Notes: generated by a model from the sequence alone, not told the origin. 64,000 nt of DNA from Pyruvatibacter mobilis (GCF_012848855.1 NZ_CP051630.1:1405501-1469500), one strand, 5' to 3'. Counted from the first letter of the stretch, positions 51,394 to 61,528 are shown. Made by a program: numbers and translations.

Positions 51394-52425
51394 ATGAAAG
51401 CACCCGCCGGACACCGCATCCGCCTGGACCCGGAAGACGAGTATTGCCACGAGCCGGACGCGGCCAAGAACTATAATGAGAGCATGTATTTCAACGTGTT
51501 CGACCCGGAGCGGAAGGTCGGCGGCTGGTTCCGCGTCGGCAACCGGCCCAATGAAGGCTACGCGGAAATGTCCGTGTGCCTCTACCTGCCGGACGGGCGC
51601 GTGGGCTTCATGTATGCGCGGCCGAAGATCAGCGGCAACACCGAGCTGAATGCGGGCGGGCTGAAGATCGAGGTCGTGGAGCCGTTCAAGAAGCTGCGGG
51701 TGACCTATTCAGGCAAGCTGTGCGTGATGACGGAGCCGAACGAAATGGCCGAGCCGTCGCGCGCCTTCAAGACCAACCCTGTCGTCGATTGCGAGGTGGC
51801 CCTCGACTATGAGGGCGTGTCGCCGATGTTCGGCGGGCAGACGGTGAAAGAAGACGGCAGCGAGCTGGACCTGGACCCGGAGAAGAGCTTTGCCAAGGCT
51901 CACTACGAGCAGCACTGCGCCGCCAGCGGGCACTTCGCCATCGGCGACGAGCGCTTTGAGGTGGACGGCTTCGGCCTGCGCGACAAGAGCTGGGGGCCGC
52001 GCTACTGGCAGGCGATCCACTGGTATCGCTGGCTGCCGATGAATTTCGGGCGTGACTTCGCGATGATGATTTCCATCGTCACCAATGCGGAAGGCCAGAG
52101 CCGGATGGGGGGCATGGTGCTGAAGGACGGCGCCTATGACCTGATCGAGCACGCGGAGATCGACAGCGACTGGGACGACAACTGGTACCAGACCGCAATG
52201 CGCGCGACTGTGCGGACGGAAAGCGGTGCCGCCTACGAGGTGAGCGGCAAGGTGATGTCCCTCATTCCCCTGCGCAACCGGCGGACCACGCCTGAAGGCG
52301 ATGAGCTGCTGACGCGGATCACCGAAGGCATGACCGAGTTCACCTGCGACGGGCAGACGGGCTATGGCCTGTCGGAATATCTCGACCAGATCGTGGACGG
52401 CAAACCTGTGAGCCTCGCATCATGA
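51394..52425 (+). CDS. Lipocalin/AttH-like hypothetical protein (DUF7064-type)
   Basis: This 343-residue soluble protein with alternating beta-strand character has FNVFDPERKVGGWFRVGNRPNEGYAEMSVCLYLPDGRVGFMYARP, DGFGLRDKSWGPRYWQAIHWYRWLPMNFG and RTESGAAYEVSGKVMSLIPLRNRR. This pattern recalls AttH/hydroxyneurosporene-synthase-like beta-barrel proteins that occur beside acyl-CoA metabolism genes in alpha- and actinobacteria. No signal peptide. GAGGAA precedes the ATG and the stop overlaps the kinase-fold gene by four bases. The family assignment is tentative. Confidence 0.7.
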   Translation: MKAPAGHRIRLDPEDEYCHEPDAAKNYNESMYFNVFDPERKVGGWFRVGNRPNEGYAEMSVCLYLPDGRVGFMYARPKISGNTELNAGGLKIEVVEPFKKLRVTYSGKLCVMTEPNEMAEPSRAFKTNPVVDCEVALDYEGVSPMFGGQTVKEDGSELDLDPEKSFAKAHYEQHCAASGHFAIGDERFEVDGFGLRDKSWGPRYWQAIHWYRWLPMNFGRDFAMMISIVTNAEGQSRMGGMVLKDGAYDLIEHAEIDSDWDDNWYQTAMRATVRTESGAAYEVSGKVMSLIPLRNRRTTPEGDELLTRITEGMTEFTCDGQTGYGLSEYLDQIVDGKPVSLAS

Positions 52426-53444
52426 GTGCTGCGGAAAACAACGATCCGAAACACGACATTGCCCTGGCCCTTCGCGAGGCACTGGGGCGGGCGCTCGCCA
52501 ATATCGACCTTGTGCGCAATGTACGGCGGCTGTCGGGCGGTGCGAGCCAGGAGACATGGGCGTTTGACGCGGTGACGGACCATCACGTCCACCCGCTGAT
52601 CCTGCGCCGGGCACCGGGCGGGCACACCAATACCAAGCGCGACACGGCGGTGCCGCTGGCGACCGAAGCGCATCTGATCCAGCTGGCCCAGAAGCAGGGC
52701 GTGCCGGTGCCGCCGGTGACGCTGGTGCTGGACGAGACCGACGGGCTTGGTGACGGCTTCATCATGGAGCGCATCGAGGGCGAGACCATTGCGCGGAAGA
52801 TCCTCCGCGACGAGGCCTATGCGGAGGCGCGGCCGAGGCTTGCTCGGCAATGCGGCGAGATGCTTGCCCGCATCCATGATGTGCCGCTTGATAAATTGCC
52901 GGACCTCCAGCGCTCCCCGGCGCGGGCGGAGATCGACAAGTATCGCGACATCTATAAATCGACCAACCATCCGCATCCGGTGTTCGAGCTGGCCTTCCGC
53001 TACCTGGAAGACAATCTGCCGGCGGACGACCGGCTGACGCTGGTGCATGGGGACTTCCGGAACGGCAACCTGATGGTGGGGCCTGACGGCGTGCGCGCGG
53101 TGCTGGACTGGGAGCTGGCGCATATCGGTGACCCGATGGAGGACCTCGGCTGGATCTGTGTCAATTCATGGCGGTTCGGTGAGATCGACAATCCTGTCGG
53201 CGGCTTCGGCTCGCGGGAGGACATGTTCGCCGGCTATGAAGCCGCCGGCGGGCCGAGCGTGGACCCGGAGCGGGTGAAGTACTGGGAAGTGCTGGGCACG
53301 CTCAAATGGGGGGTGATGTGCCTCATCATGGTGCAGGCCTTCAGCAGCGGCATGGACCGCTCCGTCGAACGCGCGGCCATCGGGCGGCGCGCCTCTGAAA
53401 CCGAGATTGACCTGCTCAATCTCCTCGCCCCGCGCCATATCTGA
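52422..53444 (+). CDS. Phosphotransferase-fold protein (APH family, ACAD10-like)
   Basis: This 340-residue protein has the aminoglycoside-phosphotransferase fold: NVRRLSGGASQETWAFDAV (nucleotide loop), FIMERIEGETI, the catalytic loop LVHGDFRNGNLMVG (HGDxRxGN) and the metal motif VLDWELAHIGDPMEDLGWI. Relatives sit beside acyl-CoA dehydrogenases and phosphorylate hydroxy-acyl-CoA or related substrates in the ACAD10 route, so a role in lipid catabolism rather than antibiotic resistance is likely. ATGA overlap with the gene before; DUF6285 gene follows by 12 bases. Confidence 0.88.
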   Translation: MSAAENNDPKHDIALALREALGRALANIDLVRNVRRLSGGASQETWAFDAVTDHHVHPLILRRAPGGHTNTKRDTAVPLATEAHLIQLAQKQGVPVPPVTLVLDETDGLGDGFIMERIEGETIARKILRDEAYAEARPRLARQCGEMLARIHDVPLDKLPDLQRSPARAEIDKYRDIYKSTNHPHPVFELAFRYLEDNLPADDRLTLVHGDFRNGNLMVGPDGVRAVLDWELAHIGDPMEDLGWICVNSWRFGEIDNPVGGFGSREDMFAGYEAAGGPSVDPERVKYWEVLGTLKWGVMCLIMVQAFSSGMDRSVERAAIGRRASETEIDLLNLLAPRHI

Positions 53445-53456
53445 AGGAGCACTCCC

Positions 53457-53846
53457 ATGCAGGATCAACCCGCTGCAAAAGACCTCGTGCTGGCCGTGCG
53501 CGAGTTTCTTGAAAATGTCGCCATGCCGAAGCTCGAGGGGCACGACGCCTTTCATGCACGCGTGGCGGCGAATGCGCTGGCCATCGTGGAGCGCGAGCTG
53601 GTCATCGGGCCGGACAGCAATGCGGAGGAGGCAGCGCGGCTGCGCAGCCTACTGGGCGAAGACGGTTCGCTGCACGACCTCAACGTAAAGCTGTGCGACG
53701 CGATCAGCGAGGGGCGGATGACGCTGGACACGCAAGGGCTGGCGGACCACCTTTGGCTGACGACGCTGACCAAGCTTGCCATCGACCAGCCCCGCTATGC
53801 GGCCTATCGCCGGGCGAAGGATACCATCGCGGAGCTGGATGCGTGA
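53457..53846 (+). CDS. DUF6285 protein
   Basis: This 129-residue all-helical protein (DLVLAVREFLENVAMPKLEGHDAFHARVAANALAIVERELVIG ... LWLTTLTKLAIDQPRYAAYRRA) fits the small family DUF6285, found almost always next to APH-type phosphotransferase genes of lipid operons. It is probably an accessory or structural partner of that enzyme. AAGGAG precedes the ATG. The biochemical role is unknown. Confidence 0.8.
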   Translation: MQDQPAAKDLVLAVREFLENVAMPKLEGHDAFHARVAANALAIVERELVIGPDSNAEEAARLRSLLGEDGSLHDLNVKLCDAISEGRMTLDTQGLADHLWLTTLTKLAIDQPRYAAYRRAKDTIAELDA

Positions 53847-53906
53847 TGGCCCCCGCCCGGCCGTCACGCCGGGCGCACTGACCGAAACAGAGCCGAGGAG
53901 CCTTCC

Positions 53907-54704
53907 ATGATCATGATGTCCGACGACGGACCGGTGGCCATTGTCACCTTCGAGAACCCGCCGATGGGATTCATGAACATGGAGATGGTGAAGGAGCTGG
54001 ACCGGATCGTCGCCGCCTATGAGGCGGACGACAATGTCCGGGCCATTGTCTTCACCGGCGGGCTGCCAAACGTCTTCATCCGGCACTATGACGTGGGCGA
54101 GATCGTGCAGGCGGGCGAGTTGGTGCGCCAGTCCGGCCGTTCGACAGACGACATCGCCGAGGCGGCGCGGGCGGAAACCGATATCGCCCGGCTGTTTGAC
54201 CGGGTGGACCGGATGGGCAAGCCGACGATCGCGGCGATCAACGGCATGTGCATGGGCGGCGGGTTCGAGTTTGCCCTGTGCTGCGACATCCGCATCGCGG
54301 CGCCGGGCCCCTACACCATCGGCCTGCCTGAAACCAATGTGGGCATCTTTCCCGGTGCGGGCGGGACCCAGCGTCTGCCGCGGGCGGTGGGCGAAGCGCG
54401 CGCGCTGGAAATGATCCTGCGCGGGCGCGTGGTGTCGCCGGAGGAAGCGGCGCAGCTGGGCATGGTGCACTGGGTGGAGACCCATGATCTGCTGCAGGCG
54501 GCGATCAATGTCGGCAAGGATATGGCGCGCAAGGCGCCTGCCGCGCTGGCGGCAGCGAAGCGGCTGGTGAAGGGCGCGACGGACCGGCCGCTGGCGGACG
54601 GGCTGGCGGAGGAGCGCGCCGCCTTCATGCGGCTGCTGGTTGAGGATGATGACGCCATGGCGCGGATGCAGGCCTTTCTCGACGGCGACGGGGAGATTGC
54701 CTGA
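53907..54704 (+). CDS. Enoyl-CoA hydratase/isomerase family protein
   Basis: This is a 265-residue crotonase-fold enzyme. The oxyanion/CoA block [36 protein letters not shown] and the second block [23 protein letters not shown] are present. Glu residues stand at both catalytic positions of true hydratases (GGGFE and LPETN), so hydratase activity is likely. GGAG precedes ATG 53907. It continues the rightward operon and overlaps yceI by one base. Confidence 0.92.
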
Positions 54705-57661: not shown

Positions 57662-58864
57662 TTACGCGCCGTGGGCACCGATGATCGACACCGAACACAC
57701 ATTCGATGACGGCGACCCGCCGAGATTGTGGGTCAGGCCGATCTTCGGGTCAGCGAGCTGGCGCTCCCCTGCCCGGCCCTGCAGCTGCAGGTACATTTCA
57801 TAGAGCATGCGCAGGCCCGACGCGCCGATCGGGTGGCCGAAGCATTTGAGGCCGCCATCGATCTGGCACGGCACCTGGCCGTCGGCGTCATAGAAGCCAT
57901 CCATCACATCTTTCACGGCGCCGCCTTCCGGCGAGATGAACAAGTCTTCCATGGTCACCAGTTCGGTGACGGAGAAGCAGTCATGCACTTCCATCATCGA
58001 GACCTCGTCGCGCGGCTTTTCGATGCCGGCTTCCTGATAGGCCTTCTTAGCGGCGATGCGGGCGGTGTGGAAATAGGAGCCGTCCCACGAATTGTGCTGG
58101 CTTTCCAGACCGTTCGACACCGACAGCTGCAGCGCTTTCACGGTGACGATGTCATGCTTGCCGAGGGACTTGGCGATCTCCGGCGTCGTCACGATGGCAG
58201 CCGCTGCGCCATCCGACACGCCGCAGCAATCAAACAGGCCCAGCGGCTCGGCGATCATCGGGGCGTTCAGCACCTGCTCTTCGGACACGGCTTTCTGCAG
58301 ATGCGCCTTCTGGTTCTTGGCGCCGTTCTCGTGGCTCTTCACCGACACATGCGCAATGGCGCGCTTCAAATCGTCCTTGTTGACGCCGTGCTTGGCGCGA
58401 TAGGCGGAGGCGAGCTGGGCGAAGTTGCCGGGCGCTGAGCCCGTCGGGGCCCACTGCGGAATGAGCGTGCCCATATTGCCCACCGGCAGGCCGCCATAGC
58501 CCGTGTCCTTCAGCTTCTCGACACCAAGCGCCAGCGCGATATCGCAGGCCCCGGACGCCACGGCATAGACCGCGCCGCGGAACGCTTCGGAGCCGGAGGC
58601 ACAGAAATTCTCGACGCGGGTGACGGCGATGTTCGGCAGCTTGAGAGCAACCGACAGCGGCGTGCCGCCCTTGCCGGTGCCGATCTCATCGATATGGGTG
58701 GAGAACCAGGCGGCGTCGAGCTGCGTCGGTTCCACGCCTGCGTCCTGCATCGCCTCGAGATAGGCCTCGACCATCAGGTCTTCGGGGTCGGCGTCCCAGC
58801 GTTCGCCGAATTTCGAGCAGCCCATGCCCAGAATGGCGACTTTGTCCTTGATGCCGCTTGCCAT
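57662..58864 (-). CDS. Thiolase (SCP-x/acetyl-CoA acetyltransferase type)
   Basis: This 400-residue thiolase of the SCP-2/SCP-x branch has the nucleophilic Cys88 in RVENFCASGSEAFRGAVYAVASG and the C-terminal His in GGLKCFGHPIGASGLRMLYEMYLQL. The end NLGGSPSSNVCSVSIIG carries a Cys in the family's second-Cys region. The sequence is closer to the steroid-type thiolases (partnered by DUF35 proteins) than to FadA. AGGAGG precedes the ATG. It is last in the leftward operon with the HMG-CoA-synthase-like/DUF35 protein, which may be its partner. Confidence 0.93.
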   Translation of the reverse strand: MASGIKDKVAILGMGCSKFGERWDADPEDLMVEAYLEAMQDAGVEPTQLDAAWFSTHIDEIGTGKGGTPLSVALKLPNIAVTRVENFCASGSEAFRGAVYAVASGACDIALALGVEKLKDTGYGGLPVGNMGTLIPQWAPTGSAPGNFAQLASAYRAKHGVNKDDLKRAIAHVSVKSHENGAKNQKAHLQKAVSEEQVLNAPMIAEPLGLFDCCGVSDGAAAAIVTTPEIAKSLGKHDIVTVKALQLSVSNGLESQHNSWDGSYFHTARIAAKKAYQEAGIEKPRDEVSMMEVHDCFSVTELVTMEDLFISPEGGAVKDVMDGFYDADGQVPCQIDGGLKCFGHPIGASGLRMLYEMYLQLQGRAGERQLADPKIGLTHNLGGSPSSNVCSVSIIGAHGA

Positions 58865-58922
58865 GTTGCACTTCCTCCTGTGGGCCCGGTCCGTGCCGGG
58901 CGATTGCAGTTCGAGTTTCTTG

Positions 58923-59297
58923 TTACCGTTTAGAATAGGCCCATGCGGCGGCGACCAAAAGCCCGCCCATGACCGCTGTGTTCTTCACAAATAGCTGAAG
59001 TTCCGCGCGCATGAGGTCCTCCGGCACGGCCCAGAAATTGTGGACGCCGATATTGATCGCCAGCGTCAGCCCCGCCAGCACCAGGGCCGCGATCACGGCT
59101 TGGAGGCCAAACACCAGCATGGCGCCGAACACCACCTCGATCACCACCGATGCCCAGAACAGGGGCACGTGGAACGGCACGTCGCGCGCCACCATCAATT
59201 CCAGCCCCTGGGCCGGGTCCATGGCCTTCATCAGGCCGGGCAGCAGAAAGAACAGGCCCAGCAGTACGCGGCCGACAACACCAACAATCCCCATCAC
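58923..59297 (-). CDS. DoxX-family membrane protein
   Basis: This 124-residue membrane protein of the DoxX/DoxD family has four predicted helices: VVGRVLLGLFFLLPGLMKAMDP, PLFWASVVIEVVFGAMLVFGLQ, AVIAALVLAGLTLAINIGV and AVMGGLLVAAAWAYSK. The opening GRVLLGLFFLLPGLMK is the family signature. Function in redox or quinone chemistry is suggested for relatives only. Its start overlaps the hydrolase stop (ATGA), so the two are co-translated. Confidence 0.9.
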   Translation of the reverse strand: MMGIVGVVGRVLLGLFFLLPGLMKAMDPAQGLELMVARDVPFHVPLFWASVVIEVVFGAMLVFGLQAVIAALVLAGLTLAINIGVHNFWAVPEDLMRAELQLFVKNTAVMGGLLVAAAWAYSKR

Positions 59298-60022
59298 GAC
59301 ACCCCCATCTTGCCCAGTGCCTTGTTGATTTCATCCGCCAGGTCCTGCGGCACGGACAGGAAGGGCGAGTGGCTTGCTGCCATCTCGCTGGTCGGCATGC
59401 CCCGCGCGTCACACATGTCACGCTGCAGGTCCGGGTGCACGGCGCGGTCCTGTGTACAGATGATGCCGAAGGCAGGCAGCGACGCGGCGCGGCCCTCGGG
59501 ATCCTCCAGTGCTTCTGTGATCGGCTGGATCGGCTGCGGGATCAGCCGGGCATTGGCCCGGGACTGATCTTCTGCCGTGCAGTCCGCATAAAAGACATCA
59601 CTCCCGGCGCCGTCCTCAATCACCGTGCGGCCACCGTCCGGTGCAAGCGCCACGCGCTCACTCAGCTCGTCCGCCGGGGCTGCCCCGGCAAGCTCGGCGA
59701 TGCTGTCGCCGTGGTCCGGCACGAAGGCTGCGAGATAGATCAGGCCCGCCACATTGCTGGATAGCGCCGCCGCGTGGGTGATGACAGCCCCGCCCATGGA
59801 ATGGCCCACCAGCACCACCTGCCCGCTCTCACCATTGGCGACAGATGCAATCGCGCGGCCATAGTCTTCCAGCGTTGTGGTGGCCGGTGCGCCATCCGCC
59901 GTGTCATGGCCGGGCAGCGCGGGCGTCAGCACCGTGTGGCCCTTGGCTTCCAGAAGCGGCACCAGCCGCTCCCAGCACCAGGGGCCATGCCACGCGCCAT
60001 GGACGAGGATGAGCGTTGCCAC
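59294..60022 (-). CDS. Alpha/beta hydrolase (esterase, EstC/MES-like)
   Basis: This 242-residue hydrolase opens ATLILVHGAWHGPWCWERLVPLLEAKGHTVLTPALPGH, has the nucleophile elbow VVLVGHSMGGAVITHAA (Ser about 82) and IICTQDRAVHP for the acid, and ends with the catalytic His in EMAASHSPFLSVPQDLADEI. The layout matches the plant-type methyl-esterase / hydroxynitrile-lyase-like family and bacterial EstC. It lies nine bases after the HMG-CoA-synthase-like gene; the substrate is probably a small ester. Confidence 0.9.
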   Translation of the reverse strand: MATLILVHGAWHGPWCWERLVPLLEAKGHTVLTPALPGHDTADGAPATTTLEDYGRAIASVANGESGQVVLVGHSMGGAVITHAAALSSNVAGLIYLAAFVPDHGDSIAELAGAAPADELSERVALAPDGGRTVIEDGAGSDVFYADCTAEDQSRANARLIPQPIQPITEALEDPEGRAASLPAFGIICTQDRAVHPDLQRDMCDARGMPTSEMAASHSPFLSVPQDLADEINKALGKMGVS

Positions 60023-60031
60023 CTTCGGCCC

Positions 60032-61528
60032 CTATTCCGCTGCCTGGGCCGTCTGTCCGGCGGCGGCCTCCACCTTGGGAACGGCCTTCCAGAAATACCG
60101 GGTGAAGCCGCGGCGGTCGTCTTTGGAGTGGATGCGGAATGCGAGGTCCACCTCCATGCCGGAATCCACCGTACCCGGAATAACGTCTGTGAAGGACATC
60201 ATGATGCGGCCGCCTTCCTCGAAGGTGATCATGCCGTAATGGTTGGGCGGGTTCTTGGACGCCGACAGGAAATCCGCGGACCAGGACAGGATCTTGGCCT
60301 TCTTCTCCGCGAACTTGTAAGGCTCCTGGGTGTCCACCGTGTGGTCATTCGGGTTCACCGAAATGCGTGACCGGGGGAACTGGACGGTGCCCGTCTTGGT
60401 GCAGCGGCCGCCGACGAGACCCATGATCATGTCCTCGTTGCGGTAAAGCGTGGTGAGCGCCGTCTTGTTGTCCTGCTCGGCGCGCATGCCCTGCTCCCAT
60501 TCAACGAGACCGTTGAAGACGAGGAGCTTCATGTAATTGTCTTCCTGGCGGCCCTGGGCCAGCGAGCCTGTGATGCCGCGCTTGTCGGCCATGGAGCCGA
60601 TCAGGTCGGTCGCCTCGAAGATGAGCGCGTCGCAGCCCTGGCCGAATTGCAGCGCCAGGATCTTGTCGCCGGGCTTGGCGTCCTGAAGCGCATGCACCAG
60701 CATGACGAGCCCGTGGGCAGCCCCGGCTTCGCCGCACTGAAGGGCGAGATTGTCGCGCACCTTTTCGGGGTCGATACCGGCCTTCTTGGCAAGCGACTGC
60801 GGCAGGCGCGGGAACACGCAAGGCAGCACGAAGTGATCGATGTCCCCGGCGCTGACACCGGTCTTCTCGAGTACCGCGGCAATGGCCTTGGGCACGATCT
60901 TTGAGTAGCCCTCGTCGCGGATCCAGCGTTCTTCCCAGTTGTAGTCGAACTCCTCGCCCTCACCGCGGAAGTGATCGACGAAGTCCACCGTCTCGGTGTG
61001 GGCGCCGATGAATTTGGCGATGACATTCTCTGTGCCGACGCTGAGCGCGGCACCGGCATCACCGAAATCCATTTCCTGGGCGCTGGCGGCCCGGCTGCGG
61101 CGATGTTCACCTGCCGCCACGAGCGCGTTCTTTGCGGTGCCCGCACCTACGGCATTGAGCGCCTGGATCAGGGCCGAGGTGCCGGCGCGCTGGGTGGAGG
61201 CGATGTCGGCGGACTGGATGCCGCTTTCAAGCGTCAGGGCCGCCGCCACGATGCCCGCGTTCAGGCGGTCGGTGAACGGCATGGTGGTGGAGGCGAAAAA
61301 GATCGCGTCGATGTGGCTGCGGTCGTCATCCTTGCCGAGGCAGTCACGGGCGGCTTCCACCGCCATGGTGATCGCGTCTTCATCCCAATTGGCCATGGAG
61401 CGCTCGCCCTTGGCCTTGCCGATTAAGTTGGGTGCCAGCCATTGGTGTGCGGCGGCAATGGACTTACGTTGAAGACGCAAACGCGGAATATATCCGCCAA
61501 GCGAGGTGAGCCCGATATCCTGGGTCAT
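60032..61528 (-). CDS. HMG-CoA-synthase-like/DUF35 fusion with altered active site
   Basis: This 498-residue protein has a thiolase-fold domain (about 1-340, KAS III/HMG-CoA synthase type: LTSLGGYIPRLRL, AVEAARDCLG, AGEHRRSRAASAQEMDFGDAGAALSVG). A C-terminal DUF35-like OB domain follows (about 372-490: VQFPRSRISVNP, YGMITFEEGGRIMMSFTDVIPGTVDSGMEVDLAFR). The usual nucleophile Cys is Gln113 in DIASTQRAGTSAL. By eye the His position reads Pro236 (DIDHFVLPCVFP) and the Asn position Glu267 (LQCGEAGAAH). The zinc ribbon of DUF35 also keeps only one Cys. So it may be a decarboxylase-like or scaffold protein for the thiolase of its operon. ATG 61528 with GGGGAA is preferred over ATG 61543/61558. Confidence 0.85.
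   Translation of the reverse strand: MTQDIGLTSLGGYIPRLRLQRKSIAAAHQWLAPNLIGKAKGERSMANWDEDAITMAVEAARDCLGKDDDRSHIDAIFFASTTMPFTDRLNAGIVAAALTLESGIQSADIASTQRAGTSALIQALNAVGAGTAKNALVAAGEHRRSRAASAQEMDFGDAGAALSVGTENVIAKFIGAHTETVDFVDHFRGEGEEFDYNWEERWIRDEGYSKIVPKAIAAVLEKTGVSAGDIDHFVLPCVFPRLPQSLAKKAGIDPEKVRDNLALQCGEAGAAHGLVMLVHALQDAKPGDKILALQFGQGCDALIFEATDLIGSMADKRGITGSLAQGRQEDNYMKLLVFNGLVEWEQGMRAEQDNKTALTTLYRNEDMIMGLVGGRCTKTGTVQFPRSRISVNPNDHTVDTQEPYKFAEKKAKILSWSADFLSASKNPPNHYGMITFEEGGRIMMSFTDVIPGTVDSGMEVDLAFRIHSKDDRRGFTRYFWKAVPKVEAAAGQTAQAAE

Follow-up and report, generated by a model that had tools for sequence, protein, structure and literature searches.

A fused KAS III/HMG-CoA synthase-like and DUF35 protein with Gln at the nucleophile site as the likely structural partner of an operon-encoded thiolase

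Introduction

What is the function of an HMG-CoA synthase-like protein in which a Gln occupies the position of the nucleophilic Cys and whose gene lies in the same operon as that of an intact thiolase? This question is raised by a locus found at positions 57662 to 61528 of the window, i.e. the whole 64,000-nucleotide stretch of DNA analysed here. A first-pass annotation made from the sequence had proposed two possible roles for this protein, either as a decarboxylase of malonyl-type groups or as a DUF35-bearing scaffold serving the thiolase.

Published complexes offer points of comparison. In the archaeal complex, DUF35 links the thiolase to HMG-CoA synthase (HMGCS) and the CoA site is common to both (PMC12329534). 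In PhlACB, the PhlA subunit is devoid of the key Cys and Glu residues and only residues of PhlC catalyse the reaction, even though all three proteins are required (PMC6392133). Furthermore, a 2010 study of SSO2064 homologues records DUF35 fusions to thiolase-superfamily domains as well as the pairing of active and inactive phlABC members (PMC2954200).

Results

Organization of the locus

The open reading frame at 60032-61528 on the minus strand was confirmed; it encodes 498 residues from an ATG at 61528. The features of the locus are the following.

60032..61528, minus strand: whole gene of the fused pseudo-KAS III/HMG-CoA synthase-like and DUF35 protein, 498 aa
60500..61522, minus strand: KAS III/HMGCS-like domain, residues 3-343 (VIA-align and profile match to 6esq_I)
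60083..60460, minus strand: DUF35 domain, residues 357-482, with a rudimentary zinc ribbon and an OB fold (Pfam PF01796 and PF12172; profile match to 6esq_E)
61286..61288, minus strand: Thr81, which replaces the catalytic Glu of HMG-CoA synthase (alignment)
61190..61192, minus strand: Gln113 codon (CAG), nucleophile site (alignments to 6esq and family alignment)
60821..60823, minus strand: Pro236, at the catalytic His site (alignment)
60728..60730, minus strand: Glu267, at the catalytic Asn site, which is Asp in PhlA (alignment)
60401..60403, minus strand: Cys376, the sole zinc-ribbon cysteine left
59294..60022, minus strand: alpha/beta hydrolase (esterase) gene, between the fusion and thiolase genes in the window's genus only
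58923..59297, minus strand: DoxX-family gene, between the fusion and thiolase genes in the window's genus only
57662..58864, minus strand: intact thiolase, 400 aa (NCBIfam NF004810/PRK06157)
58601..58603, minus strand: Cys88 codon of the thiolase

Since the fusion, hydrolase, DoxX and thiolase genes follow one another on one strand with a 9-nt gap, a 4-nt overlap and a 58-nt gap, respectively, they probably form a single operon. The first-pass annotation considered that DoxX and the esterase complete this unit. While their tight spacing does place both in the operon, their insertion inside the pair is confined to the window's genus, which sets them outside the core unit as genus-specific passengers, and we rejected them as core parts.

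The fusion protein scores below the cut-off of the HMG-CoA synthase equivalogs (188 vs 244 bits for NF003274; 139.7 vs 353 bits for TIGR00748). The OB fold of its C-terminal domain is recognised through the match to 6esq_E and by PF01796 (OB_ChsH2_C), which gives 26.9 bits for the protein against a cut-off of 27.1 and reaches 31 bits in the genome search. No relatives of the fusion protein were found in the viral collection searched. The closest named relative of the window's organism is Candidatus Phaeomarinobacter sp. (92%).

Catalytic positions of the KAS III-like domain

The AlphaFold2 model of the fusion protein (pLDDT 87.4, pTM 0.89) is best matched by the HMGCS of the archaeal thiolase/HMGCS/DUF35 complex (6esq_I, VIA-align Z 43.0, rmsd 2.0, 323 residues), followed by PhlA (Z 40.8-42.1) and by MucA from an acyltransferase complex (Z 39.5), the remaining HMGCS/FabH entries giving a Z of 35.5 or less. 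This structural comparison, suggested as a check in the first-pass annotation, brings out the 6esq HMGCS and PhlA as closest.

In two alignments, Gln113 coincides with Cys114 of the HMG-CoA synthase from Methanothermococcus (6esq; ADIASTQRAGTSAL vs ADLEFACKAGTAGI), as it does with a profile built from 20 family members, and in the model residue 113 sits between strand 105-109 and helix 115-129, that is at the KAS III nucleophile turn. Alignment with 6esq and PhlA puts Pro236 at the His site (VFHQPN) and Glu267 at the Asn site (GNT). The initial assignments of Gln113 to the nucleophile Cys and of Pro236 and Glu267 to the His and Asn sites, made by eye, are therefore upheld. To these losses must be added that of the catalytic Glu (SESHP), replaced by Thr81, which had escaped the earlier annotation. 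The same nucleophile site is held by a Gly in PhlA and by a Glu in MucA (9vbo).

Five cysteines occur in the fusion protein (C63, C237, C265, C299 and C376), and the family conserves none of them except C376, which belongs to the zinc ribbon. A substitute Cys nucleophile elsewhere in the chain was rejected on this ground, and the alternative Cys/His/Asn triad envisaged along with the original claim finds no Cys able to stand in. Likewise, an active HMG-CoA synthase was rejected because its Cys, Glu and His are replaced by Gln113, Thr81 and Pro236 and because of the equivalog scores given above.

Variation and selection across the family

The 126 relatives in the family alignment belong to Alphaproteobacteria, Betaproteobacteria, some Gammaproteobacteria, SAR324 and Actinomycetota. 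The nucleophile site is occupied by Gln (97 sequences), Leu (18), Met (5), Arg (3), Ala (1), Gly (1) or Ile (1) and never by Cys, while the His site is a Pro in 120/126. Two other positions are well conserved, namely a family-specific His272 (118/126) and an acidic residue, Glu or Asp, at 267 (113/126); His272 is absent from some divergent paired members (e.g. L069, L071, L174, L178). As some loci correspond to one genome region taken twice (e.g. L046/L094 and L045/L099), raw locus counts are not independent, and a second count was therefore made on 82 tips with an identity of at most about 85%. It gives 62 Gln, 10 Leu, 4 Met, 3 Arg and three single residues, and the maximum-likelihood tree of these tips requires at least 14 changes at the nucleophile site, at least 10 of which are of the Gln/non-Gln kind.

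Between congeners, the fusion gene is under purifying selection, with a dN/dS of about 0.07 (dN about 0.07, dS about 0.9). A sequencing error or a recent pseudogene was rejected given this ratio and the absence of Cys in all relatives; hence the Cys-bearing close relatives that would have pointed to an error, as the first-pass annotation had contemplated, do not occur among the 126 sequences. Nevertheless, the divergence of the fusion protein is about 2.8 times that of the thiolase (median of 104 loci), as expected for a scaffold beside an enzyme. In Alphaproteobacteria, Betaproteobacteria and Actinomycetota, members of the family occur in degradative operons under the names HMG-CoA synthase, 3-oxoacyl-ACP synthase III or 'OB-fold protein'.

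Pairing with an intact thiolase

The thiolase reaches 717.9 bits against the PRK06157 cut-off of 403 and thus belongs to this family. Its Cys88, His294, Asp295, Cys296, His344 and Asn380 are identical in 112/112 paired thiolases and in the archaeal thiolase, in agreement with the earlier description of an intact enzyme with Cys88 and His. Its closest solved relatives are the archaeal acetoacetyl-CoA thiolase, BbsB and SCP2-type thiolases (E 3e-57 to 6e-42), PhlC being more distant (E 3e-19). As its AlphaFold2 model is mediocre (pLDDT 69), it was left out of the analysis.

In 104/118 fusion loci, a thiolase gene is found downstream of the fusion gene and in the same orientation; unpaired loci are mostly located at contig ends, apart from a few such as L126 and L141. 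Among 289 alphaproteobacterial genomes, the fusion family is present in 52 and the thiolase family in 51, with 51 genomes common to both, and in the sole mismatch (G210) the match is an unfused HMGS-like gene. Caulobacter vibrioides is one of the species that possess the thiolase family. The pair thus appears obligate or nearly so. Two genomes (G082 and G197) which also carry the pair harbor an extra thiolase copy beside an amidase gene and without an adjacent partner; the thiolase may therefore not always need a local partner.

DUF35 domain and origin of the fusion

The two halves of the family profile match two subunits of one archaeal complex, residues 1-338 corresponding to 6esq_I and residues 357-480 to the DUF35 subunit 6esq_E (E 8.7e-9). 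In two alphaproteobacterial loci (L074 and L169), the corresponding genes are separate and adjacent in the order thiolase, Cys-less HMGS-like protein and four-Cys DUF35 protein, and the fused gene retains their HMGS-DUF35 order. The best reading of these sequence data is that the fusion protein would combine two subunits of a known type of complex in one chain.

The zinc-ribbon positions of the window protein read C-T-S-D, three of the four cysteines being gone. The depletion reported in the first-pass annotation is thus correct for the window's clade, in which this three-Cys loss is found, yet 56/126 relatives keep all four cysteines, and Cys376 persists in 123/126, also in relatives that lack the other three. 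The tree requires three changes to account for the losses, and judging from these patterns the zinc ribbon was apparently lost after the fusion.

Catabolic neighbourhoods

Outside the close relatives of the window, the pair is surrounded by genes for CoA ligases, acyl-CoA dehydrogenases, enoyl-CoA hydratases, 3-hydroxyacyl-CoA dehydrogenases, SDRs, MaoC hydratases and ring-hydroxylating oxygenases. These catabolic neighbourhoods point to thiolysis in a beta-oxidation-like degradation as our best guess for what the pair may do.

On plasmid p3 of Novosphingobium sp. ES2-1, the gene order is acyl-CoA dehydrogenase, SDR, fusion protein, thiolase, enoyl-CoA hydratases, lipid-transfer protein, OB-fold protein and P450, which mirrors the published edc operon of Novosphingobium (Caenibius) tardaugens. 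The ES2-1 copy is a fusion with a Leu at the Cys site; it shares only about 31% identity with the window protein and has retained its zinc-ribbon cysteines. In the edc cluster, EGO55_13555 and EGO55_13550 likewise associate an 'HMG-CoA synthase' with a thiolase, and EGO55_13555 is among the two genes that the authors left without a role (PMC7793797). The family offers an answer, since the synteny with ES2-1 suggests that EGO55_13555 is a counterpart of the fusion protein and may be the dead partner of the adjacent thiolase.

Discussion

Altogether, we propose that the protein is a catalytically dead fusion of a PhlA-type KAS III/HMGCS-like domain with a PhlB-type DUF35 domain that would act as the structural partner of the operon's thiolase, a reading to which we give a probability of about 0.78. 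It is favored because catalytic residues are lost in every relative examined and because pairing and co-occurrence with an intact thiolase are near-constant. Of the two roles initially put forward, that of a scaffold for the Cys88 thiolase is strongly supported by the fold, the conserved gene pair, the co-occurrence and the PhlA/PhlB/PhlC precedent, whereas the decarboxylase did not hold.

Indeed, the replacement of Cys by Gln is the signature of KSQ domains among the ketosynthases of polyketide synthases, and Gln113, being the commonest residue at this site in both counts, could by this token decarboxylate malonyl-type thioesters to feed the thiolase. However, a catalytic Gln would not be swapped as freely as the changes on the tree imply, Leu, Met, Arg, Ala, Gly or Ile being found in otherwise normal paired members, and the His and Asn needed for ketosynthase-type decarboxylation are here Pro and Glu/Asp. 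In addition, the operon comprises no ACP or acyltransferase gene, and KSQ domains are part of the KAS I/II-type ketosynthase lineage, not of KAS III, all of which makes this activity exceedingly improbable. A biosynthetic rather than thiolytic complex performing Friedel-Crafts or other C-acylations is also conceivable, as PhlACB and MucABC are the nearest complexes of known structure to contain a Cys-less subunit. Still, this is very unlikely, for the thiolase is nearer to the archaeal acetoacetyl-CoA, BbsB and SCP2-type enzymes than to PhlC, has retained the Cys296 of its HDC motif, and has a partner whose relatives reside in degradative operons.

A different possibility is that the KAS domain was repurposed, with a new active site made of Glu/Asp267, His272 and the FDYxWEERW loop and with an acyl-CoA chemistry of its own, e.g. 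hydrolysis, isomerisation or proton transfer. The conservation of the family-specific His272 and of the acidic residue 267 could mean a residual or new function, and segment 181-207 is more conserved than average. On the other hand, some divergent paired members have no His272, the evolutionary rate of the domain is 2.8 times that of the thiolase, and the conserved stretches 185-198 and 347-353 are modelled with low confidence in the monomer, as would befit interface loops; an independent chemistry is hence unlikely. The same elements (His272, Glu/Asp267 and the FDYxWEERW loop) might confer on the KAS III-like domain, its condensing chemistry gone, a new catalytic or gating role within a shared tunnel, enabling a reaction beyond that of a plain thiolase, which we view as rather unlikely too. 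If true, this could concern, for instance, the thiolytic cleavage of 3-oxoacyl-CoAs that are ring-derived or sterically blocked, as part of the catabolism of estrogen and related compounds.

Returning to the structural partner, its mode of action can be sketched from the archaeal complex and PhlACB. The fusion protein would form dimers and contact the thiolase by means of its DUF35 domain as well as two conserved loops, 181-207 and 341-360. Both segments show a conservation at or above the family average, and the confidence of the single-chain model is lowest, the C-terminal tail aside, at 185-198 and 347-353, a combination that fits loops ordering upon partner binding; we thus infer from the model that they may constitute the thiolase interface. 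The fusion protein would moreover shape an acyl-CoA tunnel leading into the thiolase active site (Cys88, His294/Cys296 and His344), so that channelling of acyl-CoA is plausible by the same analogy, while all the chemistry would take place in the thiolase active site. The most likely reaction would be the cleavage of 3-oxoacyl-CoA derived from the beta-oxidation of unusual acids (branched, cyclic or aromatic-derived), presumably in the thiolytic direction.

PhlACB (the DAPG acyltransferase, PpATase; PDB 5m3k and 5mg5; CsATase 9skh) shares with this system an inactive HMGCS/KAS III-like subunit lacking both Cys and Glu, a DUF35 subunit and an active thiolase-fold subunit with Cys88. It differs by its three separate genes, by a Gly instead of a Gln at the Cys site and, with respect to the proposed thiolysis, by its biosynthetic and CoA-independent acyl transfer and by PhlC not being the closest relative of the thiolase. 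The archaeal complex (6esq) provides the best fold for the KAS domain, a DUF35 subunit matching the C-terminal half and a thiolase among the closest solved ones, but its HMGCS is catalytically alive (Cys114 and Glu82) and unfused. BbsAB (benzoylsuccinyl-CoA thiolase), Shy-Sal and ChsH2-Ltp2 also associate a thiolase-fold enzyme with a DUF35 domain borne by a partner chain (PMC12329534); in contrast to the window pair, they are not described as having a KAS III-like subunit, and Sal and Ltp2 are aldolases.

The dead-partner design is thus already known from PhlA, and from MucA by its residue, as are DUF35 fusions to thiolase-superfamily domains; the available text of the 2010 work does not describe this fusion family, its role or its co-occurrence with the thiolase (PMC2954200). 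What is new is a large, fused and always Cys-less family operating in catabolism, near one-to-one with one thiolase family, together with a testable role for the edc gene. If the fusion protein is indeed a dead partner, the puzzle of an apparent HMG-CoA synthase in the estrogen-degradation (edc) cluster would disappear, a prediction that is directly testable, and the inactive-partner design of PhlACB would prove to be widespread in catabolism, in a single-chain form tied to one thiolase family.

Genomic context of the fusion/thiolase pair

Four genes face the operon that carries the pair, i.e., the KAS III/HMG-CoA-synthase-like DUF35 fusion gene and the intact PRK06157 thiolase gene.

51394-54704, + strand: genes for a DUF7064 protein, an APH-family kinase, a DUF6285 protein and an enoyl-CoA hydratase, oriented towards the operon

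In about 40 of the 118 loci from relatives, APH and DUF6285 genes again lie close to the pair, on the other strand. LvaB, the 12-kDa partner in levulinate catabolism, is presumably a DUF6285 member. The product of the window's APH-family kinase gene is similar to the kinase LvaA, and that of the DUF6285 gene presumably to LvaB. LvaA and LvaB work on 4-hydroxyvaleryl-CoA in this pathway (PMC6692424).

62116-62496, - strand: 126-aa ORF

This ORF only matches class I tRNA synthetases below threshold (16.8 bits, cut-off 23.4), probably by chance.

Relatives of the pair and of the fusion protein

L180:8517-9725; L181:901-2109: extra intact PRK06157 thiolase genes (genomes G197, G082)
L178:8995-11542: plasmid-borne pair, in operon with ring-hydroxylating dioxygenase and CoA ligase genes
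60401-60403, - strand: codon of Cys376, first zinc-ribbon cysteine of the fusion protein

In the related genomes G197 and G082, the additional thiolase gene adjoins an amidase gene, and no fusion partner was found locally. On one Mycobacterium avium plasmid and on plasmids of Rhodococcus, the pair lies inside ring-hydroxylating-dioxygenase/CoA-ligase operons, and the nucleophile position of the fusion protein is occupied by Gly or Ala. In the alignment of 126 relatives, Cys376 is retained in 123, and the other three zinc-ribbon cysteines are jointly lost in more than half.
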